Assembly: GCA_029210585.1 (NCBI GenBank)
Contig: JARGFP010000016.1
Span: 1-64,000, forward strand
Origin: Bacteroidales bacterium
GTDB taxonomy: Bacteria > Bacteroidota > Bacteroidia > Bacteroidales > GCA-2748055
Direction: 5' to 3'
Length of the DNA stretch: 64,000 nt
In this document: positions 1-16,927 of the stretch, one piece after another
How the letters are laid out: each line of letters opens with the position of its first letter
Position numbering within the stretch: the first letter of the stretch is position 1
The notes under the pieces: generated by a model
What the model was told of the DNA's origin: nothing
The model's database searches: none
Seen by the model: the letters and a program-made list of their open reading frames with translations, nothing else
Program-made: the position numbers and the translations under genes

Positions 1-1670
1 GTGATCACCGAAGTCTCCCCGTCACAGATCGTATCTTCAACTACTGTCACCTCCACCCTCGGGATCGGGTTCACATAGATCACTGCCGTATCAGTCGTTC
101 CTTCGCATTGTAAAGTTCCAGGCCCAAAAGGAACAACAACATATACTACCGAATCAAAAACATCGCCAGGATTAAACAACGTATCCCGGATAATATTGCC
201 TGGAAGAATATTTGGTCTAACTCCTGAAATCGAGTTTGTAATGGTTTCGAAAGAGTATCCTGTGCCAGGAAGATTACTGGAAAAATCAATTTCAATAAAA
301 TCACCGCTACAGATGGTATCTCTTGCAGGCACAACAGAAGCAATTGGTCTTGGTTGAACTACCAGCAAGACGGTGTCGCTGATTTTCTGACTCCCTAACC
401 GGTCGGTTACCAGCACCCGGTATTGGTTCCCATTCATTCCGGGATAACTTGCCGGAGATATGAAAAGTGAATCATCTTCAGTGCCTGAATAAACACCTCC
501 ATCATTGATGTCATCCCAACCCGTTCCATTGAAAAGCTGCCATTGATATGTGATGGGTTTGGGACCAACAGCCCGGACACCAAATAATGCATCATCACCA
601 TCACACACCGTATCATTTTCCGGTTGGACCAGTATACGGGGCCTTCCCGTACCAAGGCCAAAATGATTGCCAGTTGAAGCAATGCCGCCGATCAAATTAT
701 TCCGGAAAGCAAGAATACCTAAAGATCTTTGATGTTGACCATCCACATACCAATCTCCTGCAGGCGCATCTCGTTTTAAAACATATACAATGTCCTCTAT
801 TGATATTGGAAAACCCTCTCCCCTGAGCGTAAGGCTAAAATCAGCAATATCCAGCGACGCATCAGCAACCAGATGCCAGTAACCGTCTGCATAGACATCA
901 AAGATCTCGACACTGTCATCCTGCACCGGAAGTACGGCATCTCCCGGATCTTCAGAAATAAATTCTGCCAGGACTGATCCCTGCGTAATTGAGCCGGGAG
1001 CGATCACATTTGGATCAACATTGACAGCATTGTAGGTTACATCTGTACCAATGGGAAACAAATAATTATCACCAGTCCCAATTTGTCTTTTAAACCTTCC
1101 AATAATGCGTCCGCTTGTATAGATCAACGTTGATGAAACTGGGTTGGATAGGTAAAGCGAATTCGTTCCTGTACCGACGAACCCCTGTACGAATTCTATA
1201 CTGTTAGTAATTTCGACATCATTCAGCAGATTGATCCTTTCGGCAGGAAATGGAGATGAATTATTTACCTCCAGGTTGTAAAAACTACCAGTTCCTGAAT
1301 TGGTGATGGTTTGATTACTGGATCCGATTAAAGATACAGTGCCTAGCCCCGGATTGAATAGACCTGTATTGATCCAGTCACCGTGAATGGTATAGCTTCC
1401 ATCACCTTCTGCAGTGCCATTATTCAAAAATGAAGCATCAAGAAATACCTGACCATCATTTTGTATTATGCCAGAGGAATTATTTAGAGTATCACTAATA
1501 ATTACTGCATCAGATCCAATGTATAAATTTACACTTCCTGTAATACTGATAACCTGAGAAAACGAATTAATAGGTGATAGATAAAGAAATAAGAGAACAA
1601 TACTTTTTACAATAGATAAATATTTTATCCAATTGAAAGGTATCCTTAATATGCCTTGTATTATTCTCAC
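1..1670 (-). CDS. Large secreted surface protein, N-terminal part (runs off the window)
   Basis: An open frame of 556 codons reads from about 1670 down to the left edge without a stop, so the C-terminus lies outside. The N-terminus carries a signal-peptide-like segment (KSIVLLFLYLSPINSFSQ). A region rich in N, G, S and T follows, with phrases such as SGTGSFYNLEVNNSS and GDNYLFPIGTDVTYN that are typical of T9SS-exported proteins. From about residue 335 there are Ig/PKD-like repeats, each opening with a D-T-[IV]-C-[DS]-G motif. The start is uncertain: there is no in-frame ATG. GTG at 1670 is the nearest usual start, while an ATA codon just before the signal peptide would give a more normal length. 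It lies 23 bases after the tail-fibre-like gene on the same strand, so the two are probably co-transcribed. The role is inferred to be adhesin-like. The protein family is not identified more closely. Confidence 0.75.
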   Translation of the reverse strand, partial: MRIIQGILRIPFNWIKYLSIVKSIVLLFLYLSPINSFSQVISITGSVNLYIGSDAVIISDTLNNSSGIIQNDGQVFLDASFLNNGTAEGDGSYTIHGDWINTGLFNPGLGTVSLIGSSNQTITNSGTGSFYNLEVNNSSPFPAERINLLNDVEITNSIEFVQGFVGTGTNSLYLSNPVSSTLIYTSGRIIGRFKRQIGTGDNYLFPIGTDVTYNAVNVDPNVIAPGSITQGSVLAEFISEDPGDAVLPVQDDSVEIFDVYADGYWHLVADASLDIADFSLTLRGEGFPISIEDIVYVLKRDAPAGDWYVDGQHQRSLGILAFRNNLIGGIASTGNHFGLGTGRPRILVQPENDTVCDGDDALFGVRAVGPKPITYQWQLFNGTGWDDINDGGVYSGTEDDSLFISPASYPGMNGNQYRVLVTDRLGSQKISDTVLLVVQPRPIASVVPARDTICSGDFIEIDFSSNLPGTGYSFETITNSISGVRPNILPGNIIRDTLFNPGDVFDSVVYVVVPFGPGTLQCEGTTDTAVIYVNPIPRVEVTVVEDTICDGETSVI

Positions 1671-1693
1671 TAAAATAACAATGAAATTATTCT

Positions 1694-4258
1694 TTACTGA
1701 ATTCTCCTGGCTGTCATGTAGGAATACATATATAAATTTGTGGAACTACCGCTTACTACTCTTACGTTTACCGTTCCATCAGAAGTGGCCGTAAGCGACC
1801 CTGATATTTCGGTCCAGCAAACTGGTTGGCCTGCTTGATTATTTCCGAAATTAGTTGTAGTAAATTGATTAGATATGGTTAATGATTCATAAGCCATGTT
1901 ATCGCTTGGTTGAGTACCTTGGGGCACTCCTTTAACCATTGCTCGGAAATTGCCTGGTATTTCTAAGGCCCAGTTTAAATAACCATTTGTGAGCATTGCA
2001 GCATGTTGAAAATGATATTCAAAACTCCATATTTCACCTGCTTTTACTGTGAAACTCAGATCGACAATTGGCGTAGAAAAAGTGGTTATATTCTGAGTTT
2101 CTTCTATATGTTTATTTACTCCAACCATAAAACTGGATACCGGTTCTAATGTTGGATCTCCAATTGCATCAGTTATATATACCTTATTTGCATCAATGGC
2201 TCCTGATGTGCCCAATTTGGCTGGTGTTACTGCACCATCAGCAATATCTACAGCAGTTATCTGACTGGTTGTTAATAATCCCGTCGTATCTGTATGTACA
2301 ACACCAACTGTATTTAATCCGGATAAAGTCATACCCAAAAAAACAGGAATTGCACCAGTATGTATATCCTGTGGCGTTGATAAAGTGATCGTACCATCTC
2401 CATTGGATATTAATACCTGGTTAACGGTCGGCGTTAAGGTAGCCCTTGTCAACCCTCCCAATGTGTTACCGATCAACAACTGACCTCCTGTATAGGTACC
2501 ATAGCCCGTCCCTCCATTGGCAAAGCCCAATATCGATTGCCAGCTCGGAACGCCCCCGGCTGTTGTTGTCTGTAAAAACTGCCCAGCTCCTGTGGAAGCT
2601 CCTATGGATGATAGAACATCCGCCGAACTGGTATACAACAATGTATTTACCCCTCCAAAGGTCGTTAATCCTGTACCTCCATTTATAACAGGCAAGGTAC
2701 CTGTGACCTTACTGGTCAAATCAATGGTCCCATCTGCAATGTCTGCATTGACGATTTGACTATATGTTGGAGCTCCTGTTGCATTACCATGTAATACCGT
2801 ATTGACAGTTCCTTGTTGACCCTGAACTATACTTGTGCCATCTGAGATCATCAGTGATGATCCTGACAACGCAGCCCCGGAATTTGTACCTCCATTTGCG
2901 ATCGGCAATACATTCACTACCTTACTGGTCAAATCAATGGTCCCATCTGCAATGTCTGCATTGACAATCTGGCCTGTTGACAATACACCCCCTGCATCAT
3001 TATGAACAACCCCCGCCGTGGTAAAAGCAGGTAATACAATATCATTCGACGCATTCCCAATGGTGACATCTCCAGTAGAAGTTCCTGTATTAATATTTGT
3101 TGCATTGTTCGACCCACTGTTCAGGTTCACAATGCCTCCAGATATGGTAGCACCCAAATTACCCGTCAATAAACCTGCAGATGTAACCGCGCCTCCTCCA
3201 CTGGTGGTGATATCTCCACTGGTAGTGATATCATCTCCAACATTTGACGGACTCAATATCCCCAATACATCATCCCGTTGCCAATAACCTATCGTACCAC
3301 TTAACGGAGGAGTAGTTGTCAGGGTGCTGTTAACATCTGTATATACTCCTGAATTGGCGCCTAATCCATCCAGGGTCATACCCAAAAAAACAGGAATTGC
3401 ACCAGTATGTATATCCTGTGGCGTTGATAAAGTGATCGTACCATCTCCATTGGATATTAATACCTGGTTAACGGTCGGCGTTAAGGTAGCCCTTGTCAAC
3501 CCTCCCAATGTGTTACCGATCAACAACTGACCTCCTGTATAGGTACCATAGCCCGTCCCTCCATTGGCAAAGCCCAATATCGATTGCCAGCTCGGAACGC
3601 CCCCGGCTGTTGTTGTCTGTAAAAACTGCCCAGCTCCTGTGGAAGCTCCTATGGATGATAGAACATCCGCCGAACTGGTATACAACAATGTATTTACCCC
3701 TCCAAAGGTCGTTAATCCTGTACCACCGTACTTCACTTCAATTACACCTGCCCTCCAGGTGCCGGCTCCTATCGTTCCCAACGTCGTAATCGATCCCTGG
3801 CCGATATAGGTATTTGCGATATCTATGACCGGGTTGGCAGGGTCCGTTTTAATAATGGTTATGCGGTTCGGCATTCCGTCGATATTGTTAATACCGATAC
3901 TCCCGGAAAACAATATCCTCCAATTACCGTCCGCATAGATATTTAACTTGTTCGTACTGGTATTGTATATGATCAGACCATCTGTCGGACTGCCGATCGC
4001 CCCTCTTTGCGTAGTATCCATCCGCGGTACCAACAATCCCCGATCAACCGACCGAAGCTCCAGTATCGCTGATGCATGTGGTGTGATCGTCGTCTCACTG
4101 ATCCCCACCCCCTGGCCGGAGGCCTGCCTGGCTCCTGTGAACAGTATCAGAAGCATCATTGCATGCAAGAGTCCTGCCTTCGCGGAATTTCCGAATTTTC
4201 CCTTTTGCACACGGGAAAACAAGGGCAGGCGTGAAATTGATTTCTGATGTGTATCCAT
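1694..4258 (-). CDS. Tail-fibre-like repetitive surface protein
   Basis: The protein has 854 residues. A long N-region and a hydrophobic stretch (AMMLLILFTGARQASGQ, about 33-49) make a probable signal peptide; the inner Met at 34 is an alternative start. Residues about 60-110 hold the module common in Bacteroidota tail-fibre-like proteins (ILELRSVDRGLLVPRM, then GLIIYNTSTNKL and a G-W motif). The middle is Gly/Thr/Ser-rich with recurring ADIADGTIDLTSKV and GGTG phrases. Residues about 179-295 and 528-644 are identical at both protein and DNA level. The last 130 residues look like a compact beta-rich head (SGSLTATSDGTVNVRVVSG), possibly C1q- or tail-tip-like. No T9SS sorting domain is visible. 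No phage genes are nearby, so a cell-surface or secreted fibre is more likely than a prophage tail. Its partner downstream is the large protein that runs off the left edge. Confidence 0.75.
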   Translation of the reverse strand: MDTHQKSISRLPLFSRVQKGKFGNSAKAGLLHAMMLLILFTGARQASGQGVGISETTITPHASAILELRSVDRGLLVPRMDTTQRGAIGSPTDGLIIYNTSTNKLNIYADGNWRILFSGSIGINNIDGMPNRITIIKTDPANPVIDIANTYIGQGSITTLGTIGAGTWRAGVIEVKYGGTGLTTFGGVNTLLYTSSADVLSSIGASTGAGQFLQTTTAGGVPSWQSILGFANGGTGYGTYTGGQLLIGNTLGGLTRATLTPTVNQVLISNGDGTITLSTPQDIHTGAIPVFLGMTLDGLGANSGVYTDVNSTLTTTPPLSGTIGYWQRDDVLGILSPSNVGDDITTSGDITTSGGGAVTSAGLLTGNLGATISGGIVNLNSGSNNATNINTGTSTGDVTIGNASNDIVLPAFTTAGVVHNDAGGVLSTGQIVNADIADGTIDLTSKVVNVLPIANGGTNSGAALSGSSLMISDGTSIVQGQQGTVNTVLHGNATGAPTYSQIVNADIADGTIDLTSKVTGTLPVINGGTGLTTFGGVNTLLYTSSADVLSSIGASTGAGQFLQTTTAGGVPSWQSILGFANGGTGYGTYTGGQLLIGNTLGGLTRATLTPTVNQVLISNGDGTITLSTPQDIHTGAIPVFLGMTLSGLNTVGVVHTDTTGLLTTSQITAVDIADGAVTPAKLGTSGAIDANKVYITDAIGDPTLEPVSSFMVGVNKHIEETQNITTFSTPIVDLSFTVKAGEIWSFEYHFQHAAMLTNGYLNWALEIPGNFRAMVKGVPQGTQPSDNMAYESLTISNQFTTTNFGNNQAGQPVCWTEISGSLTATSDGTVNVRVVSGSSTNLYMYSYMTARRIQ
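2328..2677 (-). repeat. 350-bp direct repeat, copy A
   Basis: Identical base for base, by reading, to 3375-3724, at an offset of 1047 bp (349 codons), so both copies stay in the same frame of the fibre-like gene. Identity at silent positions shows that the duplication is recent or kept uniform by gene conversion. Confidence 0.9.
2706..2752 (-). repeat. 47-bp direct repeat inside the fibre gene
   Basis: Identical to 2919-2965, an offset of 213 bp (71 codons). It encodes the VNADIADGTIDLTSKV motif. It is a second, shorter in-frame duplication of the same gene. Confidence 0.85.
3375..3724 (-). repeat. 350-bp direct repeat, copy B
   Basis: Partner of 2328-2677. The sequences diverge immediately outside these limits (tcc versus acc at the left-hand end of the encoded motif), which marks the edge of the duplicated block. 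Confidence 0.9.
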
Positions 4259-4585: not shown

Positions 4586-5311
4586 TCAACTAAAAACAGT
4601 CCGCAGTACGTCCAGTGATTTCAGTTCGCGCATGGAATGGTGATGGAGCCGGTAAAACTGCAACAGGGAATCCAGGAAGCGGTTCCGCTGTTCATGATTG
4701 CTAAACACCTGGGAACCTGAATCATAATCGCTTTGAAAACACGCCTTCCATTGCAAGCCAAGCAGTGTTTCCTGTTGCATATCCAGGGTATCCGGATTGG
4801 ATGAAAAAGAGCCTGATGCAACATTAAAGAACCTGTTGTCTTCGGAAAAATTATTCCTGGGGTAAAAACCCAGGTAGCGTGATAACCTGAAAAGAAAGAA
4901 AAGATGAAATGAAGGCAATCCTGAACCGGCAGAAAATAACCAGACCGATGTCTGCTCCAGGAAATCGAACAGGGCAGGGTTTCGTTCTTCCTCCCTGATC
5001 GTCTTCATCAGAACTTCACTGATAAAGATCGCCTGTGTGGATTTCACAATATCCAGTTCATGTGCCATTGCTGCAACGGAAAAGGAAGCATCCCTGATCC
5101 AGTGCATTTCCCTGTTCTCCCTGTAATACACATCCAGGTCGAGCACGTACAAGGGCTGGAACATGGAAGAACGCTGATTCCTCCTGGATTTCCTGGCGCC
5201 CTTCAGCAAAAAGGCACTGCGTCCCCAGGCTTCGGTGAAGGCATGCACCACCAGGCTGCTGTCGCCATAACGGAATGCATGTAATATGATCGCCCTGGTC
5301 TTTTGCAGCAT
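4586..5311 (-). CDS. recO: DNA repair protein RecO
   Basis: RecO helps RecR load RecA onto SSB-coated single-stranded DNA during recombinational repair. The 241-residue length is normal for the family. The N-terminal OB-fold begins in the usual way (MLQKTRAIILHAFRYGDSSLVVHAFTE) and continues with LLKGARKSRR. A helical C-terminal part follows (LFFLFRLSRYLGFYP). The zinc-binding cysteines found in many RecO proteins are absent, as is common in Bacteroidota. The gene is 94 bases downstream of porZ on the same strand. Confidence 0.92.
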   Translation of the reverse strand: MLQKTRAIILHAFRYGDSSLVVHAFTEAWGRSAFLLKGARKSRRNQRSSMFQPLYVLDLDVYYRENREMHWIRDASFSVAAMAHELDIVKSTQAIFISEVLMKTIREEERNPALFDFLEQTSVWLFSAGSGLPSFHLFFLFRLSRYLGFYPRNNFSEDNRFFNVASGSFSSNPDTLDMQQETLLGLQWKACFQSDYDSGSQVFSNHEQRNRFLDSLLQFYRLHHHSMRELKSLDVLRTVFS

Positions 5312-5405
5312 CGTAACTCGAAAATATTTTTATTCAGGAAAAGATAGCTCGCAACTCATAAAAATTCTTACAAAGGAAGCATTCACACTGCAATCTCACC
5401 AACCC

Positions 5406-7709
5406 TTAATGTATAAACAGTATCTTGGCCACGTGTGCCCTTGTTGCCTCCCTGTCGGCCCTGTTGGCAAGAAAGAGCAGGTAGGTGCCGGTGGCCACCC
5501 TGTTGCCGTTGAAATCGGTGCCATCCCAGATCGCCTGACCGCCGAATGAATTCAGCTCATTTACCAGGTTGCCACTGATGTCCGTGATCTTCACCGTGGT
5601 TTCTGCGATCAGTCCACTGATGGCAATCGGGCCATTGTATGTTTCCCGGACAGGGTTTGGATATACTTTCACATCAGCATAGCTGGCAGCGCCTTCCGTG
5701 GCTGTTCCCTTAAAGGAGATCATCCCTTTATCAGTGCCGAAAAACACTTCGCCGGTCGTTCCTTCCACGCAGATATCTGTAATGCTGTTGGAGAGAATCG
5801 GACTGGTGCCCGTGTTGAAATTATAAATCTGCTCAAATCCATTCTCCGATACCAGGAATGCCCCGCCATCAGCCGTTCCGATCCATTTCCGGTTCGATCC
5901 GTCCACCTCAATGGAAGTTATTTTCTCGGTCTGCAGCAACGGATCCCCGTATATGGTGCCATCATTCCTCGGGACAATGATCTCACGTGCAAACAGTTCC
6001 CCGTCGGTAAACAACCTTCCCGGACTGTAAAACACCAGGATGCCCTGGTTGGTACCCAGCCAGATATTGCCATTCAGGTCCTCAGCAAATGAAAACACTT
6101 CGTTGGTGATCACACTGCCATTTTCATCTTTTACACTTACCAGTTGATACGTGTCATCCTCTTCGTCATCGATCGTCCCGTTGAAATCAATCGCAAACAA
6201 GCCTCCTCCCTTGGGTATGATCCCCCACAAATGTCCCTCCCCGGTGATCAGGATCTCTCCCAGGGCATTGAAATCACTTAATTTCCCCTCTGCCCTGAAA
6301 CTCTTCCATGTACCGTCATTTTTCAACACGGAAATCGGTTCTGAAACGGCGGTGTTGGTCATCCATAAATTCTTATCCTTATCATAGGCGAGCCCCCCGA
6401 TACGCACCACATCTCCTCCCGGTATCGCGTTCTGAAGCGAACTGTTGTTTTCCCTGTAAATGACCTCAGGTACACCCTCAAAATACTCCACAAGTCCGTA
6501 CCCCCAGGAAGCAGCAAAGACATGCGTATGATCAGAAGGATCTACCACCACCGAAATCAGATCCTGAAAATCGTACCGGATATTCGAGCGCCAGGCTTCA
6601 TCCGTGAACCGCTGCAGAATACCCGACCTGAACACATTGTTGTAGGTAGCGGTAACTCCTCCCGACACAGCATACAGGATCCCTTCCGCGGAAGCCATTC
6701 TGTATGCAATCCCTGAAAAAGGACCATTGGGCCTGATCAACTGCTCTTCATTGTTTTCGTACCGCACCAGCCCCCGGCCATAATCAGCAATCCAAATCAC
6801 CCCGTTTTCGTCCCATATGGCAGAACGGGGCCGGCCTTCATTATAAGTGTCCAGGACCAGGAAATCCTTACCCATCACCCGTACACCTTCTTCCCCGGTA
6901 AAAACCAGGTACCCGCCCGATCTCCGGATCTCCGAATATTCCTGCTGCAATGTTTCCGGACCTTCCTTCCAGGTGCCGTCGTAATAGTAGACCCGGTCTT
7001 CGTCTTCCCCTGGAATGTTGTATACCACGTAGATCCTTCCGTTCAGGTGTGCAATGCCGGAATATTTCCCGTATGGGTCCGGCAATGTTGCTACAAGCTC
7101 CCACGAATTGAAATCGATCATGAAAGGATTGGACAATCCAGCCCTGCGGACCCCCTCATCCGTTGCTGCATACAGCCAGGTTCCGTCTGATGTTACCTGG
7201 TTAACCCCTAATTGGTCACCGTTATCGCCAATGTAAAACGTTTCGGTGATTTCAAATTTCTCTACATCCAGCACCACAATCCCGAATCCACACGACAGGT
7301 ATGCCTTTTCATTGATAAAATAAATATCGTGCACCGATTTATTACCCGGAATCTGCTTCTTCATGATATCCGGAATATTGATGATCTGGTTGTCCCTGAT
7401 GATATCAAGATTCGCATTACTGTATGCAAGCACTGCAAGCTGCCTGTCATTGTTCCACTCCATCGCCTCAACACCATTGTCAGAAAGCCCGTCGGTCTTG
7501 GACAATGTTTCAACAGTGTTATCCCTGAGATCATAATAGAAGAGCCCGCCGGTGGATGCACAGAATACCCTGTCATCTGCCACCATTACCCTGGTCGTGT
7601 TCTGGTAGGGAAGATGTGTTCTCCATTCACCAATTCCCACCTGTCCCTCCAGGGGAAGCGAAAAGAGAACCGTGAACGCAAGAAAAGCGAACAAAATTTT
7701 ACGTTGCAT
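5406..7709 (-). CDS. porZ: PorZ-like type IX secretion protein
   Basis: PorZ is a surface component of the T9SS attachment complex that works with the sortase PorU when A-LPS is attached to cargo. The chosen start (Met at 7709) gives a clean signal peptide (MQRKILFAFLAFTVLFSLPLEG); an upstream in-frame Met at 7739 would add ten residues. After it comes VGIGEWRTHLPYQNTTRV, a typical PorZ opening, then propeller-type repeats (GLFYYDLRDN, LWMTNTAVSE, IWLGTNQGILVF, KWIGTADGGAFLVS). The last 90 residues form a T9SS type A sorting-like domain (VKVYPNPVRE, WDGTDFNGNRVATGTYLLF). Total length, about 767 residues, suits PorZ. A general two-component-type propeller protein is the alternative, but the N-terminal phrase and the domain order favour PorZ. 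Confidence 0.82.
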   Translation of the reverse strand: MQRKILFAFLAFTVLFSLPLEGQVGIGEWRTHLPYQNTTRVMVADDRVFCASTGGLFYYDLRDNTVETLSKTDGLSDNGVEAMEWNNDRQLAVLAYSNANLDIIRDNQIINIPDIMKKQIPGNKSVHDIYFINEKAYLSCGFGIVVLDVEKFEITETFYIGDNGDQLGVNQVTSDGTWLYAATDEGVRRAGLSNPFMIDFNSWELVATLPDPYGKYSGIAHLNGRIYVVYNIPGEDEDRVYYYDGTWKEGPETLQQEYSEIRRSGGYLVFTGEEGVRVMGKDFLVLDTYNEGRPRSAIWDENGVIWIADYGRGLVRYENNEEQLIRPNGPFSGIAYRMASAEGILYAVSGGVTATYNNVFRSGILQRFTDEAWRSNIRYDFQDLISVVVDPSDHTHVFAASWGYGLVEYFEGVPEVIYRENNSSLQNAIPGGDVVRIGGLAYDKDKNLWMTNTAVSEPISVLKNDGTWKSFRAEGKLSDFNALGEILITGEGHLWGIIPKGGGLFAIDFNGTIDDEEDDTYQLVSVKDENGSVITNEVFSFAEDLNGNIWLGTNQGILVFYSPGRLFTDGELFAREIIVPRNDGTIYGDPLLQTEKITSIEVDGSNRKWIGTADGGAFLVSENGFEQIYNFNTGTSPILSNSITDICVEGTTGEVFFGTDKGMISFKGTATEGAASYADVKVYPNPVRETYNGPIAISGLIAETTVKITDISGNLVNELNSFGGQAIWDGTDFNGNRVATGTYLLFLANRADREATRAHVAKILFIH

Positions 7710-7750
7710 GCTGATAAATATGATATTAATAGTACGCAAAAAAGTGTGAG

Positions 7751-8374
7751 TTATTTCACCTGGAGCGATGAATCATCCAGTGCATTGAGAAAATCGGTCA
7801 GTTTCCGGATGGCCCGGGCCCGGTGGCTGATCCTGTTCTTTTCTGCCAGGTCCATCTCTGCAAATGTTTTCAACCCTCCTTCCGGAATAAATATGGGATC
7901 ATACCCAAACCCTTCTTCTCCTCTGACATCCAATGATATAACTCCTTCAACAACCCCCTCAAAAGCATGGCGGCTGCCCTCCAAAATCAATGCAATCACG
8001 GTTCTGAACCTGGCATTGCGGGTTTCCGCACCCTCCAGCTTTTCCAACACTTTGCGTATATTTCCTTTCGACACCTCCATATCGGGATATGTAGGAGTAC
8101 CTATGCGCGAATACCTTGCTGAAAAAACGCCGGGCTCCCCGTTCAGGGCATCGATTTCCAGTCCGGTATCATCGGAAAAACAGGAAATACCGTATTTTTC
8201 ATACACATATGCTGCCTTTTGAAATGCGTTTTCCTCAAGCGTAAAATGATCTTCCGGAATCTCCTCCCGGATACCCTTTTCCTTCAGACCGGCAACCCTG
8301 AAACGGGTGTCAACCGCCTGCTTTATTTCCAATAACTTGTGATCGTTATTGGTTGCAAAAATTAATTCTCTCAT
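7751..8374 (-). CDS. rdgB: XTP/dITP diphosphatase (RdgB/HAM1)
   Basis: Hydrolyses non-canonical purine nucleoside triphosphates (dITP, XTP) to monophosphates plus pyrophosphate, keeping them out of DNA and RNA. The start was set at the Met giving MRELIFATNNDHKLLEI, the normal family N-terminus with the substrate-loop T-N-N-x-x-K. The longer frame up to 8458 would overlap the stress-protein gene and run through its terminator. Other family motifs are SDDTGLEIDALNGEPGVFSARYS and GFGYDPIFIPEGG, with SHRARAIRKL near the end. The resulting length is about 207 residues, as expected. Confidence 0.93.
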   Translation of the reverse strand: MRELIFATNNDHKLLEIKQAVDTRFRVAGLKEKGIREEIPEDHFTLEENAFQKAAYVYEKYGISCFSDDTGLEIDALNGEPGVFSARYSRIGTPTYPDMEVSKGNIRKVLEKLEGAETRNARFRTVIALILEGSRHAFEGVVEGVISLDVRGEEGFGYDPIFIPEGGLKTFAEMDLAEKNRISHRARAIRKLTDFLNALDDSSLQVK

Positions 8375-8380
8375 AAAAAA

Positions 8381-8408
8381 AGGCCGCTCCATGAACGGCC
8401 TCTGTTTT
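8381..8408 (-). terminator. Hairpin terminator after the stress-protein gene
   Basis: Six-base stem (AGGCCG at 8381-8386, CGGCCT at 8396-8401) with a 9-base loop. On the minus strand it is followed by seven T residues that run up to the rdgB start codon. A- and T-runs flank both sides. It lies 16 bases after the stress-protein stop and 7 bases before rdgB. Confidence 0.75.
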
Positions 8409-8423
8409 TTCTGTTTCATTATT

Positions 8424-9263
8424 CTATGCGCCCCCGGTTGCCCTGAATCCACCGGCAATCTTCATCGGCCTGGGATTGATACACATCACGGGAAGGTTGT
8501 ACTCATTTGCAATGATGTATTGCTCCGGAGCTCCGAATATATAGTCCACGAACTTGATATCACGCGTGGCCATGATCAGGATCATATCAAAATTATGTTC
8601 ATGGGCATATTCAACCACCTCCTGTTTAAAGCTTTTTTTACCGGTGCTTGAAACAATGTCATATCGAATATCACGGGTCTTTAAGTAGCTTTCAATATAC
8701 TTCATATTGGAAAGCAATTTGCGTTTGAAACCCCGGTCCCTGGGATGGGACTTGAAAATGGTGACCCGCAATTCAAACCTTGTGGAAAGGTGAAAAATCC
8801 AGTTCGCCTTTTCCTTGTTCTCCTTCTTAAAATCGATAGGCAGCAAAATGGTTTCCAGCTTGTCCTTAACAGGTTTATCCTGAACGATCAGGAAGGGAAT
8901 ACGCGATGAAACAACCACCTTTACCGCCCTGCTGCCAAAGAGCTTCTGTGCGCCTTTGATCCCATGCGTCCCCATGATGATCATCTCCGCATTGTACTGC
9001 TTGGAAACTTCACCGATGGTGTGAAAAATATTGCCCTCCTTTACAATGCAATGTGGTCGCTTCCCGAATTCCTTGTCCAGTTTTACAGCCGACTCTTCCA
9101 TTGCTTTTTCCTTCTCCGCGATGTCCTTGTCATCACTCACAATATGCAACAAGGCAATACTGCAATTAAGCGTCCTTGAAAAATTCAATGCATGTAAAAA
9201 TGCATTCTGCGCTACATGTGTAAAATCCCAGGGGACAATAATCGGTTTATCAGTTTTTTCCAT
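8424..9263 (-). CDS. Tandem universal stress protein (UspA family)
   Basis: The 279-residue protein has two Usp domains. The first (about 1-145) is complete, with the N-terminal strand IIVPWDFTHVAQNAFLHAL and the nucleotide-loop signature GTHGIKGAQKLFGSRAVKVV, which matches G-x2-G-x9-G-S. The second (about 150-279) starts with ETILLPIDFKKENKEKANW. It ends IMATRDIKFVDYIFGAPEQYI and lacks a clear glycine loop, so only the first half probably binds ATP. Cytoplasmic and inferred to act under stress. It ends at a hairpin terminator just before rdgB and is transcribed divergently from the sensor cyclase. Confidence 0.9.
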   Translation of the reverse strand: MEKTDKPIIVPWDFTHVAQNAFLHALNFSRTLNCSIALLHIVSDDKDIAEKEKAMEESAVKLDKEFGKRPHCIVKEGNIFHTIGEVSKQYNAEMIIMGTHGIKGAQKLFGSRAVKVVVSSRIPFLIVQDKPVKDKLETILLPIDFKKENKEKANWIFHLSTRFELRVTIFKSHPRDRGFKRKLLSNMKYIESYLKTRDIRYDIVSSTGKKSFKQEVVEYAHEHNFDMILIMATRDIKFVDYIFGAPEQYIIANEYNLPVMCINPRPMKIAGGFRATGGA

Positions 9264-9303
9264 GGATAATATAGATTTAGTTTACATTTAAGGGGTAATC
9301 CAT

Positions 9304-9337
9304 ATATTTACGTATATCAAATATTTACGTATTTTTG
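9304..9337 (+). promoter_or_regulatory. Tandem 12-bp repeats and -7 box before the cyclase gene
   Basis: ATATTTACGTAT occurs at 9304-9315 and again at 9321-9332, a period of 17 bp. A perfect TAnnTTTG box (TATTTTTG, 9330-9337) overlaps the second copy. No TTG lies at the -33 distance, which suggests that an activator bound to the repeats could be needed. The motif contains the palindrome TACGTA. Confidence 0.5.
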
Positions 9338-9381
9338 GCTACACAACAGCTGTTTACAGGCACCTATCAGGTTTACAAGTT

Positions 9382-12300
9382 ATGAATTTATTTTTCAAGT
9401 CATACAAGTTTTATTTATTTTTTTTCCTGACAGGCCTCCTGAAATACGCTGTATTACTGGGACAGGACAATGAATCGTCTTTTCAGCCTGTCCCCGAAAC
9501 CATTGAGTTCGAAATCCCGTCAAAATATAACAAGACCCCGAATACTTCTTTTTGCAGCAACGACCAGGGCGTTTATTTTATCGGAAAGGAAGACGGATTC
9601 CTCACTATTGATGCGGGAAAAGCAATCTTCACACCATTAAATGGTTCCGTATACCTGGCACGAACTGCCAACAATGAAATCCTTTATCTTACCAACAATG
9701 ATTTTGGCTACATCAGGTATACCCTCTCCGGGGGTCCCGGAATGATTTCCCGCCAGGACATGCTGGTCACACATTTCCCGGATTACTATCCCACCGGGAT
9801 ACATGTAAAAGATACCCTTGCCTTTCTGGCCACCACGGAAGGAATCTTCGTTGTTTCTGCTAACAGCGCCAACCATTTTTTCTTTAACAGGCAACCGGTG
9901 AAATTACATACATCCGGTAACCATGTATTCCTGCAGGCAGGCAACCTGGGTCTGTTCCAATGGAGTGGAGCGGAATTTGTCAGCATTGTACCTGCGGAAA
10001 CACTGAATAACAAACTCCTGGCAGGAATTATTGACGTGGATACAGCCCTGCTGCTGCTGCGCAGGGAAGCGCCTCCACTGCGCCTGGTAAAAGCAACCGG
10101 TCAAACCAGTCCAACGGAAATCGAGGGAATTAACGACCGGGAATATGAATCAGTACATTACCTGTTCGACCACCTTTACCTGGGGAAGAAAATGACAAAC
10201 GAACTTGTCATTCTGTCCACCCTGAATACACCAGCAGGTCATCTCACTGAAGAATGCAATTTACCGGGATCATCCCTGGCATCGGTATTTACAGATAACT
10301 TTAATGATGTCTGGATCATTTCTGATTTCACGATCGCAAAAATGGAATTTCCACCCAGGTCTGTCATCCTCGATATTTATGCGCAGATGGGAAAATATGT
10401 GATATCTGCAACGTTTAACAAGGAGGGGATTTACCTTGCAACCACAAATGGAATATATCTCCTTGAATCCGGTGAAAACGGAAGCTGGACAACAGTTCCC
10501 ATACCAGGGTCAAAGCAAAGTCACTTCCATACAATACAGGCACATAATAACCTGGTTTTAGCAACAGGATTACACGGGACCTGCCGCGTAGGCAAAGACA
10601 CCATGGAACTGATTTTCAATGAACATTCCGATTTTATACATATTCTTGATGAACACGCTTTTATTGCATTCAGTAAAAACAAACTATTCAAAAGCTCCCT
10701 TCAGGATGGAAAGTGGACTTCCGAAATTATCGATTCCACATTGCACCAGATCATTTCACATGCTGAATGCAAACAGGATTCCTACATTCTTACGGGGAAC
10801 AATGAAATTTTCAGGATAAATTCAGACCGGTTACAACCGGCAAACCTGATCATGCCTCCAGGTGATTCGCTGAATAGTCTGCTGGCATACCGGGGAGGCT
10901 TGCTTTTGCAGGGGGGGGAAAACTTCTATTCCTGGGACCTCGTTTCAGAATACTGTACTCCTTTGCGGATGTCAGAATTACAAAAAATACTTCTGTCTTC
11001 GGATATTATATACTCCGGCAGTGATCATCTCTGGATCGTTTCCGGGGATGCAACCGGGGGGGCGACGGTCTGGAAGCATGAGAACGAATTTATCAACACG
11101 CCCTACTACGAAATCCTGGCAAAACAATCCTTCGGACAGGTCATGGATATTCAGGCGAAAGATGGTTACCTCTGGATTACCAGCAACAAAATGCTTCTCA
11201 GGCTCGATATTGAACCGGAAGAAAACCAGCTGAAAGACCTGCTTCGTATACAATCCGTCGCCCTGGCCAGAGAAGGAGCGTATTCAGAACCCCGGCGGAT
11301 CCGTCCCTCTGAGCCGATCAGGTACCGGAAACAAAGCATCATCATCGGGTTAACAAACCTGCGCTTTCAGAAGGGGCCCTATCCCTACTATCGTTACAAA
11401 CTCAACCACTACCAGGAGGAATGGTCCGAATGGAACAGAAACAGCCACATCGTCATCGACAATCCATGGGAAAGAAAGTATACTTTTGAAGCCCAATCCG
11501 TTTCATCCTTTGGAGAACTGTCAGATCCGGTAACATTTGGGTTTACTGTGACTCCGCCTTTTTACAGGACCTGGATCGCATACTTTTTATATATCCTGCT
11601 GCTGTTTACCATCGCTTTTTTACTCTACAAGTGGCGCCTGCTGAGCCTGAAAAGGGTAGAATACCGGCTGGAAGAGAAAATCAGGGAACGCATGAAAGCC
11701 GTTCTGAGTGAGAAGGAAAAATCTGACAAGCTGGTGGCCGACCTTTTCCCAAAAGGAACAGCTGAAGAACTCAAAAGCAGGGGCCGTGCAAAATCAAAGA
11801 AATTCGAATTGGTTACCGTCTTATTTAGTGACATCCAGGGATTTACACGAATAGCCGAAGAAATGAATCCCGAAGTGCTGATCGATGAGCTGGATAAATT
11901 TTTCTTCCATTTCGACTCGGTGGTGGACAAATACAATATTGAAAAAATAAAAACCATTGGTGATGCTTACATGGCTGCCGGTGGCATTCCTGTAAAAAAC
12001 AGCTCCAATCCCGTGGAAGTAGTGCTGGCAGGCCTCGAAATGCAGTACTACATGAAAAACCTGAAAAGACAGAAGGCCGACATCTGGGACCTTCGGATCG
12101 GGATTCATACCGGTCCGGTCATTTCAGGGGTAGTGGGTCATAAAAAACTATCCTATGATATCTGGGGCGACACGGTAAACACTGCCTCCCGAATGGAATC
12201 TTCCGGCGAGGGTGGCAAAGTGAACATATCGGGCATCACCTACTCCCTGGTCAAAGAGTTTTTCATCTGCGAATACAGGGGAAAGCTCCCGGTGAAATAC

Positions 12301-12978
12301 AAGGGAAATATCGATATGTATTTTGTCACCGGCCTGCGTCCGGAATTGTCGGTCGACCTGCACGGTATTCCCAACAGGAGATTCTTTATCAAATTGCAGA
12401 TGCTCAAAATCAAGGACCTGGAAGAAAGAGTGCTCGACCTGATTGCATCCAACATGGCACTGAACCTGCACTTCCATAAAAACGAGTATATACGGAAGGT
12501 GTGCAATCAGACCGAATTGCTGGGGCGGTCCGAAAATGTCTCAGACGATGAATTGCTGCTGTCACAAACTGCTGCGCTGATGATGTTCTCAGGCCTTTCC
12601 GAAACCTATGACAATTTTGAAAACACTTCCGTAAAAATCACCAGGGAAATCCTCCCCGAATATGGTTATGATGAGAAACAGATCGACCGGATCTGTAACC
12701 TTATCCTGGCTACCAAAGAACCATTCTTGCCGCGGAATATCCTGGAATCCATCCTGGTTGATGCAAAAATGGAATACCTTGGACGAAGTGATTACATCAC
12801 CCAGGTGAAACTGCTGTACCTGGAAAAGAAAAATGCATATCGCGATCTCCCGAAGGAAAAATTCCTGAAACAACAAGCCGACCTGGTCAGCAATTTTAAT
12901 TTTTTTACCCTGGCTGCACAGCGCCTGCGGGAAATCACACCTGAAAATCAACTGGTCAACCTCCGGGGCTGGAAATAA
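9382..12978 (+). CDS. Transmembrane sensor class III adenylate cyclase
   Basis: The 1198-residue protein starts with a signal peptide (FYLFFFLTGLLKYAVLLGQ). A propeller-like periplasmic sensor region follows (about 30-640), then a Y_Y_Y-type beta domain (YPYYRYKLNHYQEEWSEW, about 665-730) and one membrane helix (about 732-753). A coiled segment and a class III cyclase domain (about 805-1000) come next. The cyclase has the metal-site FSDIQGF and GDAY. It also has Lys in KIKTIGD and Asp in YDIWGD, the pair that specifies ATP rather than GTP, and the N-x3-R of NTASRME. So it should make cAMP. The last 190 residues resemble an HD phosphohydrolase domain (EILPEYGYDEKQIDRIC, LILATK), but the metal ligands are gone: the HD pair reads MF and DAD reads DAK. 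Extracytoplasmic signals are probably sensed by the propeller; the ligand is unknown. Confidence 0.88.
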   Translation: MNLFFKSYKFYLFFFLTGLLKYAVLLGQDNESSFQPVPETIEFEIPSKYNKTPNTSFCSNDQGVYFIGKEDGFLTIDAGKAIFTPLNGSVYLARTANNEILYLTNNDFGYIRYTLSGGPGMISRQDMLVTHFPDYYPTGIHVKDTLAFLATTEGIFVVSANSANHFFFNRQPVKLHTSGNHVFLQAGNLGLFQWSGAEFVSIVPAETLNNKLLAGIIDVDTALLLLRREAPPLRLVKATGQTSPTEIEGINDREYESVHYLFDHLYLGKKMTNELVILSTLNTPAGHLTEECNLPGSSLASVFTDNFNDVWIISDFTIAKMEFPPRSVILDIYAQMGKYVISATFNKEGIYLATTNGIYLLESGENGSWTTVPIPGSKQSHFHTIQAHNNLVLATGLHGTCRVGKDTMELIFNEHSDFIHILDEHAFIAFSKNKLFKSSLQDGKWTSEIIDSTLHQIISHAECKQDSYILTGNNEIFRINSDRLQPANLIMPPGDSLNSLLAYRGGLLLQGGENFYSWDLVSEYCTPLRMSELQKILLSSDIIYSGSDHLWIVSGDATGGATVWKHENEFINTPYYEILAKQSFGQVMDIQAKDGYLWITSNKMLLRLDIEPEENQLKDLLRIQSVALAREGAYSEPRRIRPSEPIRYRKQSIIIGLTNLRFQKGPYPYYRYKLNHYQEEWSEWNRNSHIVIDNPWERKYTFEAQSVSSFGELSDPVTFGFTVTPPFYRTWIAYFLYILLLFTIAFLLYKWRLLSLKRVEYRLEEKIRERMKAVLSEKEKSDKLVADLFPKGTAEELKSRGRAKSKKFELVTVLFSDIQGFTRIAEEMNPEVLIDELDKFFFHFDSVVDKYNIEKIKTIGDAYMAAGGIPVKNSSNPVEVVLAGLEMQYYMKNLKRQKADIWDLRIGIHTGPVISGVVGHKKLSYDIWGDTVNTASRMESSGEGGKVNISGITYSLVKEFFICEYRGKLPVKYKGNIDMYFVTGLRPELSVDLHGIPNRRFFIKLQMLKIKDLEERVLDLIASNMALNLHFHKNEYIRKVCNQTELLGRSENVSDDELLLSQTAALMMFSGLSETYDNFENTSVKITREILPEYGYDEKQIDRICNLILATKEPFLPRNILESILVDAKMEYLGRSDYITQVKLLYLEKKNAYRDLPKEKFLKQQADLVSNFNFFTLAAQRLREITPENQLVNLRGWK

Positions 12979-13013
12979 GATCTAAAACATCACTGTAAAA
13001 CATCTTTCCCGGA

Positions 13014-13044
13014 TTGTAGAACCGTTCCTGAATCATTACATTTG
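13014..13044 (+). promoter_or_regulatory. Promoter of ilvE
   Basis: TTG at 13014-13016, 20 bases, then TACATTTG at 13037-13044, a perfect TAnnTTTG box of the Bacteroidota sigma-ABfr type. Its place also favours the second ATG of ilvE. Confidence 0.65.
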
Positions 13045-13070
13045 ATTGCTCAAAATAAATGTATATACAT

Positions 13071-14087
13071 ATGAATATTGACTGGAAAAACCTGGGGTTC
13101 GGGATCAGCGAAACAGATTATAACGTACGTTGCTATTACAGGAATGGCAGCTGGGGTGAACTGGAAATATCCTCATCCCCTCAAATTTCCATGCACATGG
13201 GGGCCACCTGCCTGCATTACGGACAGGAATCATTTGAAGGATTAAAAGCCTACAGGGGCAAAGACGGAAGAATCCGGCTCTTCAGGTATGACGAAAATGC
13301 AAAAAGAATGCGCACCTCTGCAGAAGGCATCATGCTGGCGGAAGTTCCACAGTCCCTTTTCCAGGAGGCTGTTGAAAAAGTGGTGAAACTCAATGAACGG
13401 TTTGTTCCTCCCCATGGAACGGGTGCTTCTTTGTATATCAGGCCGTTGCTGATTGGTACAGGTCCCCAGGTGGGTGTCAGGCCTGCCGATGTATTTCTTT
13501 TCATGGTGTTTGTAATGCCGGTAGGCCCCTATTTCAAGGAAGGATTCAAGCCCGTTGATATCATGATCACCCGCGACCATGACAGGGCCGCCCCGTTGGG
13601 TACAGGCCACCTGAAAGTCGGCGGAAACTATGCTGCAAGTATGACCTCGGTTGCCGAGGCACATGATGCCGGCTTTGCAACAGCGCTTTACCTGGACGCA
13701 CGGGAAAAAAAGTACATCGATGAAGCCGGACCGGCAAACTTCTTTGCCATCAGGGACAATACCTATATTACACCCGATTCAAGTTCCATTCTGCCTTCAA
13801 TTACCAACAAAAGCCTGCAGCAAATTGCTTCCGATATGGGCATGAAAATTGAAAAAAGACATATCGAAGTCGGTGAACTGGAAACTTTTGAGGAAACCGG
13901 TGCCTGCGGAACAGCTGCGGTGATCACTCCGATCAGGAAAATTGTGGACAAAGATACCGGCAAAACCTATACTTACGGAGATGGATCCAATCCCGGACCG
14001 GTGACTGCGAAACTATATGAAAGATTAACTGGGATTCAGTACGGGGATGTGGAAGATCCATACGGGTGGATTACGATACTGGACTGA
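13071..14087 (+). CDS. ilvE: Branched-chain amino acid aminotransferase
   Basis: PLP-dependent class IV aminotransferase that moves the amino group between glutamate and the 2-oxo acids of leucine, isoleucine and valine. The length of about 338 residues fits the longer branch of the family. Motifs: LHYGQESFEGLKAYRG, RPLLIGTGPQVGV, GTGHLKVGGNYAAS with the PLP lysine at about residue 182, YLDAREKKYIDEAG, and the C-terminal GTAAVITPIRKI. The start was placed at MNIDWKNLGF. An ATG at 13059 would leave almost no leader after the predicted promoter. A strong terminator follows, so it is a single-gene unit. Confidence 0.93.
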   Translation: MNIDWKNLGFGISETDYNVRCYYRNGSWGELEISSSPQISMHMGATCLHYGQESFEGLKAYRGKDGRIRLFRYDENAKRMRTSAEGIMLAEVPQSLFQEAVEKVVKLNERFVPPHGTGASLYIRPLLIGTGPQVGVRPADVFLFMVFVMPVGPYFKEGFKPVDIMITRDHDRAAPLGTGHLKVGGNYAASMTSVAEAHDAGFATALYLDAREKKYIDEAGPANFFAIRDNTYITPDSSSILPSITNKSLQQIASDMGMKIEKRHIEVGELETFEETGACGTAAVITPIRKIVDKDTGKTYTYGDGSNPGPVTAKLYERLTGIQYGDVEDPYGWITILD

Positions 14088-14110
14088 ACGAAATTGCATT
14101 GACCACAAAG

Positions 14111-14136
14111 CGCCGGAATTCCCGGCGTTTTTTTTT
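14111..14136 (+). terminator. Intrinsic terminator after ilvE
   Basis: Perfect six-base stem CGCCGG (14111-14116) / CCGGCG (14122-14127), a 5-base loop, then nine T residues. Confidence 0.9.
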
Positions 14137-14143
14137 ATCTTTG
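14136..14143 (+). promoter_or_regulatory. -7 box before ftsX
   Basis: TATCTTTG, a perfect TAnnTTTG match, begins at the last T of the ilvE terminator and lies 21 bases before the ftsX ATG. No TTG is visible at -33, because that position falls in the terminator stem. Confidence 0.5.
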
Positions 14144-14164
14144 GGCAAATCTGATCATGTTGCC

Positions 14165-15043
14165 ATGGCAAAAAATGAAAAAAGAATCAGCAGGCGAAGG
14201 CTCCGGAGCTCCCACTTCACTTCTGTGATCAGCATTTCCCTGGTATTGTTCCTGATCGGTTTTCTGGGACTGCTGATCATCAACGGACGCAACATCAATA
14301 AAACAGTTAGGGAGAGCATCGGCTTCAATGTCATCCTGAAGGAAAACGTAAAAGATGCCGACATCCTGCAGCTTCAGAAAATCCTGGATGCGAAACCCTA
14401 TACGCTCTCCACTGAATACATCACCAAGGAACAGGCTGCACTTGAAACCGAGCAATTGGTTGGAGGCGATTTTGTTGAATTCCTCGGATTCAATCCGCTC
14501 CCTCCATCTATCAGGTTAAGGTTGCAGGCTGCCTATACCCGGCCCGATTCCGTGGTATTCATTGAGCAGGAGATTCTTAATTATGACCAGGTGAACGAAG
14601 TGGTGTACAAAAAAACCCTGCTCTATGCCATCAATGAAAATATAAGGAAAATAAGTATCGTCATCCTGGGATTCAGTGCCCTGCTTACACTTGTGGCCAT
14701 TACACTTATCAACAACACCATCAGGCTGTCGATTTATTCCAAACGCTTTATCATCAACACCATGCAGCTGGTTGGAGCAAACCGGAGTTTTATACGCAAA
14801 CCCTTCATGCTGCGAAGCATCATCAATGCAGTGGTCGGGACAGTCATTGCCATGTCCCTGATCGCAGGTATCGTAAACCTTGCTGCTGAAGAGCTTGAAA
14901 ATATCATCTCCTTTACCGATGGTAACCTCATGTTGCTGCTTGGAGCATCTATCCTGGTAATTAGCATTGTAATTAACTGGATTTCTACTTTCTTTGCAGT
15001 AAATAAATATCTGAACATTAAAACAGATAAACTTTATTATTAA
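14165..15043 (+). CDS. ftsX: Cell division permease-like protein FtsX
   Basis: FtsX pairs with the ATPase FtsE at the septum and couples ATP use to activation of peptidoglycan hydrolases. The start MAKNEKRISRRRLRSSHFTSV was preferred to a frame beginning inside ilvE, because it follows the promoter box and gives a normal basic N-terminus. Four membrane helices are visible: about 22-42, then after a periplasmic loop (NVILKENVKDADILQLQKIL) about 177-199, 229-251 and 265-287. The loop and the motif MQLVGANRSFIRKPF before the third helix are FtsX features. ftsE is not in this window, as is common in Bacteroidota. Confidence 0.92.
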   Translation: MAKNEKRISRRRLRSSHFTSVISISLVLFLIGFLGLLIINGRNINKTVRESIGFNVILKENVKDADILQLQKILDAKPYTLSTEYITKEQAALETEQLVGGDFVEFLGFNPLPPSIRLRLQAAYTRPDSVVFIEQEILNYDQVNEVVYKKTLLYAINENIRKISIVILGFSALLTLVAITLINNTIRLSIYSKRFIINTMQLVGANRSFIRKPFMLRSIINAVVGTVIAMSLIAGIVNLAAEELENIISFTDGNLMLLLGASILVISIVINWISTFFAVNKYLNIKTDKLYY

Positions 15044-15053
15044 CCTGTCAACC

Positions 15054-15314
15054 ATGGCTAAAAAAAATAAAGAGAAGGAAAACTTCGCACTCGCACCCGA
15101 AAATTATAAGTTACTGATCATCGGTTTCGTAATTATCGTTATCGGGTTCTTACTGATGCTGGGTGGTGAAACAGATGACCCTGCAGTATTCAAACCGGAT
15201 GAAATTTTCAGTTTTCGGCGGATCACCCTCGCACCGATCGTTGTTATGTTTGGTTTTGTGTTCGAAATCTGGGCCATTATGAAAAAACCATCATCCCCTT
15301 CCCACGAAGAATAA
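15054..15314 (+). CDS. DUF3098 membrane protein
   Basis: Small 86-residue protein with two membrane helices (LLIIGFVIIVIGFLLMLG and LAPIVVMFGFVFEIWAIM) and the conserved link DDPAVFKPDEIFSFRRI. This matches DUF3098, a family of unknown function found mostly in Bacteroidota. It sits ten bases after ftsX and 18 before uppP, so a role in the division or cell-wall process is inferred from position only. Confidence 0.88.
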   Translation: MAKKNKEKENFALAPENYKLLIIGFVIIVIGFLLMLGGETDDPAVFKPDEIFSFRRITLAPIVVMFGFVFEIWAIMKKPSSPSHEE

Positions 15315-15332
15315 TTATCCTGAACACCTGGC

Positions 15333-16130
15333 ATGAATATTATTGAAGCGATCATCCTTGGCATCATACAGGGACTCACCGAGTTTTTGCCGGTGAGCAG
15401 CAGCGGACACCTGGAAATCGGAAAGGTAATCCTCGGTGTGAACATCGAAGAGGACCTTGGATTCACCGTTCTGGTCCATTTTGCCACAGTACTGAGCACA
15501 ATCACAGTATTCTTTTCTGAAATCAGGCAGCTGCTGGCAGGTTTATTCAAATTCAGGTGGAACGAAGAAACAAAATATATTTCCAAACTGCTCTTTTCAG
15601 CCATACCTGTACTTATCGTGGGTATCCTGCTGGAAGAGAAAGTGGAACTGCTCTTCAGTAAAAGTGACGCCAGCCTTGTCTTTGTAGGAATTGCCCTGCT
15701 CATCACAGCGATATTGCTTGCACTCACCAGCTTCATCAAACCCGGGCAGCCAAAAAAACTTCCCTTTTCTGATGGCTTCATCATAGGTATTGCCCAGGCT
15801 TTTGCAGTCATTCCCGGACTCTCAAGATCAGGAACTACCATTGCCACAGGCCTGCTGCTGAAAAACAACAGGGAAGAAGTTGCCAAATTCTCTTTTTTGA
15901 TGGTCCTGGTCCCTATCATCGGGGCTTCCATGCTGAAGCTGCTGGACTGGTCGGGAACAGGCACATCGAATACCGGCACCCTCTCCCTGGCAGTCGGATT
16001 CGTTGCAGCATATTTCAGCGGGTTCCTGGCCTGTAAATGGATGATCAATATCGTGAAAAAAGGAAAACTCATCTGGTTTGCCATCTACTGCACCTTGATC
16101 GGGCTCATCGCAATCTTTTTTACCGTATAA
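15333..16130 (+). CDS. uppP: Undecaprenyl-diphosphate phosphatase
   Basis: Membrane enzyme (BacA/UppP) that dephosphorylates undecaprenyl pyrophosphate to recycle the lipid carrier for peptidoglycan and O-antigen; it can also give bacitracin resistance. The two catalytic motifs are present: GLTEFLPVSSSGHL near the N-terminus and PGLSRSGTTIATGL near residue 165. About eight hydrophobic helices are visible in 265 residues, the usual size. Only three bases separate it from truB. Confidence 0.95.
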   Translation: MNIIEAIILGIIQGLTEFLPVSSSGHLEIGKVILGVNIEEDLGFTVLVHFATVLSTITVFFSEIRQLLAGLFKFRWNEETKYISKLLFSAIPVLIVGILLEEKVELLFSKSDASLVFVGIALLITAILLALTSFIKPGQPKKLPFSDGFIIGIAQAFAVIPGLSRSGTTIATGLLLKNNREEVAKFSFLMVLVPIIGASMLKLLDWSGTGTSNTGTLSLAVGFVAAYFSGFLACKWMINIVKKGKLIWFAIYCTLIGLIAIFFTV

Positions 16131-16133
16131 TTC

Positions 16134-16835
16134 ATGAATGATACAGCTGCCCAGGCATTTCTCGAAGGTAAAATCATCCTGATTGACAAAGACCTCGACT
16201 GGACCTCATTTGATGTAGTCAACAAACTCCGCATCGAATTACGCAACCAGCTCGGCATTAAAAAGATCAAGGTGGGTCATACCGGGACGCTCGACCCTCT
16301 TGCCACCGGGCTGGTGATCCTGTGCGCAGGCAAGGCCACGAAAAAAATCGAATCCTTCATGGGCCTCGACAAGGAATACATAGCCGAAATTACCATCGGT
16401 GCCACAACCCCTTCTTACGACCTTGAAACAGGTATCGAAGCAACATTACCCTTTGAGCACGTCACCAGGAAACAGCTCGAATCTGTTTTGAATACATTCA
16501 GGGGTGAGATCGAACAAACTCCTCCCAACTATTCCGCCAAACAGGTGGATGGTAAAAGAGCATATGACATGGCCAGGCAGGGAGAGTCATTCAAACTGAA
16601 AAAAAACCTGGTGACCATCCATGAACTTGAACTACTGGAGTTTTCTCCTCCTGAAATCCGCCTGCAGATACGCTGCAGTAAAGGAACCTATATACGCTCC
16701 CTTGCGAACGATATTGGTGAAAAACTGGGCACAGGCGCCTATTTATCAGCACTGCGAAGAACAAAAATTGGTGATTATCATCTAAATGATGCAGAAAAAA
16801 TAGCAGACTTTACAAAAAATTTAAAACCTTTGTAA
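16134..16835 (+). CDS. truB: tRNA pseudouridine(55) synthase
   Basis: Makes pseudouridine-55 in the T-loop of tRNAs. The catalytic Asp lies in VGHTGTLDPLATGLVIL (about residues 44-60). Further motifs are KKIESFMGLDKEYIAEITIG, PPNYSAKQVDGKRAYDMAR and CSKGTYIRSLANDIGE. Length is 233 residues, the short form without a large C-terminal PUA extension. Tightly linked to uppP upstream. Confidence 0.95.
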   Translation: MNDTAAQAFLEGKIILIDKDLDWTSFDVVNKLRIELRNQLGIKKIKVGHTGTLDPLATGLVILCAGKATKKIESFMGLDKEYIAEITIGATTPSYDLETGIEATLPFEHVTRKQLESVLNTFRGEIEQTPPNYSAKQVDGKRAYDMARQGESFKLKKNLVTIHELELLEFSPPEIRLQIRCSKGTYIRSLANDIGEKLGTGAYLSALRRTKIGDYHLNDAEKIADFTKNLKPL

Positions 16836-16927
16836 CCTTTTTGTGTTCCTTACGTATAAGGAGGCTCGTCAACCGGACCCAAAATCAAACGGTCAGCAGC
16901 CGCATTCAATAAAAGTTTTTACAGACA

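Follow-up and report, generated by a model that had tools for sequence, protein, structure and literature searches.

The gene at positions 1694-4258 on the reverse strand of the window, as the whole 64-kb stretch of Bacteroidales DNA analysed here will be called, encodes a fibre-like repeat protein of 854 amino acids in one uninterrupted open reading frame (ORF), and the repeats it carries make it probable that homologous recombination has lengthened, shortened and homogenised the stalk of this fibre, with the protein working like a periscope protein. Recombination of this kind has probably changed the length of the gene itself, as judged from the sequence of the gene and of its relatives.

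At the centre of the evidence is a perfect 350-bp in-frame duplication, silent positions included, which the original prediction had described and which proved exact to the base. On the reverse strand, and in gene order, the first copy occupies 3375-3724 (residues 179-295), where it spans two GGTG modules, and the second occupies 2328-2677 (residues 528-644). Exact extension places the two at an offset of 1047 bp, or 349 codons. The 697 bp that separate them (2678-3374, reverse strand) contain most of a segment termed the B block (residues 261-425), and the sequence differs on all four sides of the copies. Between them lies another exact pair of 47 bp, at 2919-2965 and, next in gene order, at 2706-2752, both on the reverse strand and delimited in the same way by exact extension, with an offset of 213 bp, or 71 codons; the predicted 349-codon spacing and the presence of this smaller pair within it were both confirmed. 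No other exact repeat of 25 bp or longer, direct or inverted, was found in the 64-kb window, and a third copy of the 350-bp repeat was not found either, as a DNA search of the genome to which the window belongs gave two matches, both in this gene.

The agreement between the 350-bp copies extends to every silent site, all 116 of 116 codons being the same. When the codons of the gene were shuffled 200 times, the longest exact repeat never exceeded 16 bp, and when synonymous codons were redrawn 200 times with the protein held fixed it reached at most 27 bp, against the 350 bp observed, while codon identity between the copies in such redraws was at most 46%. Since the silent identity lies so far above that of the synonymous redraws, the copies appear to have been made identical recently or to have been kept identical. 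Past the ends of the identity the flanks are still recognisably related, with a GGTG motif on one side and MTLxGL on the other, and have diverged. The overall layout of the repeats is A-R-B-R-C, in which C is weakly like B, and is not a clean tandem array; the B block itself is present in one full and one truncated copy. By simple arithmetic, the removal of one 1047-bp period would leave 505 of the 854 codons, in keeping with the claim that recombination between the copies takes out 349 codons in frame, and the addition of one period would give 1203 codons, again in frame.

The product of the gene is best read as a secreted modular fibre-like protein with a conserved N-terminal domain, a putative stalk of GGTG modules and a variable C-terminal region. 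Its start resembles a signal peptide when the translation is examined by eye (about residues 1-49; 4112-4258, reverse strand), and for the conserved N-terminal domain (residues 31-121; 3896-4168, reverse strand) 100 of 295 genomes searched from the order, its own included, give a match at E 1e-8 or better. GGTG or GGTN motifs recur in the middle of the protein at residues 178, 233, 456, 527 and 582, and this is the region that would serve as the stalk. The C-terminal region (residues 689-854; 1697-2194, reverse strand) is beta-rich in a structure model of low confidence (pLDDT 54.1); it gave no phage match and no pattern match in IMG/VR, and no convincing relative among the fetched ORFs, where the best hit had an E value of 0.38 and the N-terminal piece of G318 is entered under two names. 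An AlphaFold2 model of the B block was likewise of low confidence (pLDDT 56.5, pTM 0.24), and a sequence search of the PDB returned a single match at E 1.7. The protein matches no Pfam family at E 0.001, and its one NCBIfam match at E 1, to LiaF, is below cutoff. Neither a C-terminal sorting domain of the type IX secretion system (T9SS; Por_Secre_tail, CHU_C), sought in Pfam at E 0.001 and in NCBIfam at E 1, nor any surface anchor, sought in the same two collections, was found. The protein does match phrog_31660, a tail fiber protein family (E 4.2e-6), over a best stretch of residues 229-284, and its N-terminal region is about 31-33% identical, at 12-18% query coverage, to the "tail fiber domain-containing protein" of Aureispira and Aureibacter plasmids. 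With regard to the earlier description of the gene as one for a surface fibre, the fibre part stands by the tail-fibre resemblance in PHROG, and the surface part becomes a likely location, suggested by the signal-peptide-like start and by the gene that follows. That gene (1-1691, reverse strand), which is cut by the end of the contig, has a PKD_5 domain and is 44% identical over 525 amino acids to a CHU_C/SprB-repeat protein encoded behind the fibre gene of another genome of the same family (G001).

Further evidence that this stalk has grown and shrunk comes from relatives. A whole-protein search of genome contigs gave 31 pattern matches with no relative among them, and a search with an alignment of B blocks led to 43 loci; among the named relatives, the closest blocks are those of metagenome-assembled genomes (MAGs) titled Bacteroidales or Bacteroidota. 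B-block-like segments were also noted at nine loci, L185, L186, L187, L189, L191, L192, L194, L205 and L213, where they lie in long ORFs of between 1609 and 5362 aa, from MAGs titled Daviesbacteria, Roizmanbacteria, Saccharibacteria, Nomurabacteria or Patescibacteria, with up to 9 B-block matches at E 1e-3 in L187.

Two complete fibre genes from Bacteroidales MAGs, referred to as G138 (contig JAGNKY010000010.1, C11 20239-32853) and L174 (JAGPFZ010000006.1, 8498-18469), share the same place, after QueA and before FKBP and SprB-like genes. They run to 4204 and 3323 codons, compared with 854 in the window, and they contain five and four B blocks, respectively, at E 1e-6 (six in G138 at a looser E 1e-3), so that gene length in this family differs with the number of units, as had been proposed. 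Every exact repeat of 25 bp or longer within them is in frame, 62 of 62 in G138, with a longest of 474 bp, and 70 of 70 in L174, with a longest of 773 bp. At the DNA level, the four B copies that come later in G138 share 88-93% identity with one another and 60-63% with the full copy of the window, and the first is more diverged, at 74-76% identity to the other copies in the same gene; the pattern in G138 is one of concerted evolution, as read from these identities. The first 200 amino acids of the G138 and L174 proteins are 84.5% identical, and their last 250 gave no BLASTP match at E 1, which suggests an exchange of heads like that seen in phage tail fibres. As these are similar genes at the same place, the species differ in both block number and C-terminal end. 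A second type of repeat was seen in L174 between the stalk and the C-terminus, at residues of about 1500-2400, where short units of the NSVTSAKI kind include an exact 273-bp repeat at an offset of 579. Taken together, the silent identity, the in-frame offsets and the block numbers of relatives uphold the view that the 350-bp pair arose by recent in-frame duplication or homogenisation, with whole-codon recombination as the likely cause.

A wider survey took in 66 loci, in which 82 family ORFs of at least 300 aa were set against 197 neighbouring ORFs of the same stretches. The sample is not random: 60 regions were picked by hand from the upper part of the N-terminal-domain matches listed, with some places omitted, among them places of G038, G228 and G312, the six additional loci were chosen for their similarity to the window gene, and several of the loci share one genome. 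Eight of 91 family ORFs were left out as shorter than 300 aa, one family ORF cut by the edge of its region was dropped, and the window gene, G138 and G001 lie outside the 82. An exact internal repeat of at least 20 bp was found in 20 of 82 family ORFs and 3 of 197 neighbours, and one of at least 50 bp in 8 and 1, respectively. In each of the 20 family ORFs the longest repeat was in frame, as it was in two of the three controls. Part of this excess reflects length, because the family ORFs are the longer ones (median 694 aa vs. 459 aa).

The same survey bears on the main alternative, in which the window gene underwent a single recent segmental duplication or gene conversion and has no length variation at present. 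This account falls somewhat short of an even chance. It shares past recombination with the favoured reading of a recombining stalk and differs on ongoing variation, and the odds of the two overlap. It is consistent with a window gene that has two copies only, arranged otherwise than in a clean tandem array, and with the 62 of 82 family ORFs that lack an exact repeat of 20 bp. Stalk amplification is not constant in the family, given these 62 ORFs and the three listed family ORFs of a single-contig genome (G239), whose exact repeats reach 17-19 bp; likewise, the G063 gene, complete at 1224 aa, contains a single B block and lacks exact repeats of 25 bp or longer. Against a single event, however, stands the finding that the same block has been amplified and homogenised in relatives, with offsets that keep the frame throughout both long genes. 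Because relatives amplify this very block in frame, repeat amplification looks to be a habit of the gene and no single accident.

How many blocks each gene really has must be judged with the assemblies in mind. Of the 17 B-block loci in genomes titled Bacteroidota, 13 have a fibre gene cut short by a contig end (two of these loci are the same as G005 and G010), and the gene likewise runs off its contig in all five of the other genomes of the same family that have a match (G001, G003, G005, G008 and G010), G003 sharing the N-terminal part alone with the window gene, at 30% identity. In the survey, a contig end cuts 13 of the 82 family ORFs and 9 of the 197 neighbours. In G369, a 233-bp repeat occurs twice in frame (2752-2984 and 3289-3521 of 3521), and the final base of its second copy is also that of the contig. 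The genome of the window (G000) is a draft in 116 contigs, that of G138 is in about 30, and L172 and L174 are titled MAG; since the repeat-rich genes come from multi-contig assemblies, the copy numbers, that of the window included, are provisional. An assembler could reduce an array of the form A(RB)nR to n=1, and the frequency with which draft genomes break inside these genes suggests that their true lengths may be under-recorded.

The opposite error, a single module entered twice by the assembler, would explain the duplication in a 116-contig draft where the gene lies 1.7 kb from the first base of its contig, yet it is very improbable. The copies are 697 bp apart with four differing flanks, they line up with the borders of the modules and keep the reading frame, and relatives in other assemblies carry several copies of the intervening block. 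Moreover, the assembly error of which a review speaks is collapse, which leaves too few copies (PMC6868369).

Still less credit is due to the idea that this is a tail fibre gene of prophage or phage origin whose repeats reflect the evolution of phage host range, for which the PHROG match, two phage tblastn matches (8-10% coverage) and one IMG/VR contig could be cited, as the gene has housekeeping neighbours and a signal-peptide-like start, is followed by a gene related to CHU_C/SprB-repeat proteins, and lies beside RecO or QueA in several families. The modules and the phage fibres may have a common origin; the gene here is outside phage genes. Upstream of it on the same reverse strand are RecO (4586-5311) and the T9SS component PorZ (5406-7739), and RdgB and the universal stress protein Usp complete a neighbourhood with no phage genes. 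The window has a QueA gene as well (16928-17977). The fibre gene follows RecO in G008 and G063, and it follows QueA in G138, G318, L174, L175, L177, L178, L179, L182 and L190. When the window (4586-17977), L174 and L099 are viewed side by side, the fibre gene appears at either edge of the RecO-PorZ-RdgB ... QueA block, depending on the lineage. A different giant gene follows recO in L075 (1-6522; G009:C1), with an exact 590-bp repeat in frame at an offset of 1908 and a further 65-bp repeat nearby at the same offset, in a stretch of which part reads N.

The 3' end of the gene with the B block is readable in eight loci: the window, G001, G318, G138, L174, L176, G063/L180 and L209. Behind the fibre gene, a relative of the downstream gene of the window is present in seven of the eight, five of which also have an FKBP-type gene. 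Another ORF intervenes between the two in L180, and in L209 neither the relative nor an FKBP-type gene was found (tblastn, 1e-6).

Under the favoured reading of a recombining stalk, RecA-type homologous recombination would act among the gene's own repeats, by unequal crossing over or gene conversion, so that blocks would be added, removed and re-homogenised, and selection would retain the in-frame outcomes. The latest event in the window gene would have made a 350-bp stretch over two GGTG modules identical at both places, while the older flanks of the repeat stayed diverged through it. A simple tandem duplication of R plus B was considered as the sole route and set aside, for the second R precedes sequence that is weakly like B, and gene conversion between older repeats is on that account equally possible. 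The 350-bp copies would be long enough to recombine again, to give a protein of 505 or 1203 residues with a shorter or longer stalk. This recombination route is the one to which the repeats point, and ongoing length variation within a population, from cell to cell as first proposed, is what it predicts; the genome sets contain one genome per species, and the length differences seen are between species. A broader and more tentative proposal, somewhat doubtful as a whole, is that of a Bacteroidales adhesin system in which a recombining tail-fibre-like stalk is combined with an exchanged C-terminal head, such that reach and specificity might change independently, and reach from cell to cell. Its genes would form a set that recurs next to RecO or QueA and consists of the fibre, often an FKBP-type isomerase, and then a giant protein of the CHU_C/SprB type.

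Among known systems, the closest likeness is to the periscope proteins, such as Sgo_0707, SasG and Rib, for which the portions available of two papers propose that intragenic homologous recombination alters the number of repeats and, hence, the length of projection (PMC8201768, PMC9704523). The word "Bacteroidetes" is absent from the main text of the former, and "Bacteroid" from that of the latter. As in the periscope proteins, so far as those portions describe them, the repeats of a probable surface protein have very high DNA identity, over 350 bp here and over 474 and 773 bp in two relatives. Periscope proteins as described there form rods from a single chain, in which identical folded domains follow one another in true tandem arrays, and variants of different length have been observed. 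In contrast, the gene in this genome has an interrupted block of tail-fibre-like modules in two copies, with a fold that is unmodelled above pLDDT 56.5. Tail-fibre-like stalks are often trimeric. Multimeric stalks, for example those of trimeric autotransporters, are excluded by the periscope review in its accessible part (PMC9704523). The gene is therefore likened to periscope proteins by the DNA identity of its repeats, and assignment to the class is withheld, as the length differences are between species and the structure models are too poor to show a rod.

The repeat number of SasG of Staphylococcus aureus varies even within one colony, and the repeats of yrIlm of Yersinia ruckeri are identical even in DNA, according to the available text of a paper that also warns that repeat numbers can be misjudged in assemblies (PMC6868369). 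The present gene shares DNA-identical repeats with yrIlm, as described in that text, and differs from both SasG and yrIlm in its domain types. Phage tail fibre proteins (phrog_31660) resemble the modules in sequence, as noted above for residues 229-284, whereas the gene, unlike those of phage tail fibres, is chromosomal, lies beside RecO and outside any virion gene cluster, and has a signal-peptide-like start. The likeness to the plasmid proteins of Aureispira and Aureibacter is one of the N-terminal region, where alone they were compared. No paper on this fibre family or its repeats was recognised among the literature search results. The gene is a member of a known broad kind, the surface proteins with recombining in-frame repeats, and a known mode of surface-protein variation would thereby be extended to a tail-fibre-like family whose N-terminal domain has matches in 100 of 295 genomes searched from the order. 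In this family, the growth of stalks and the exchange of heads can be measured directly in pairs such as G138 and L174.
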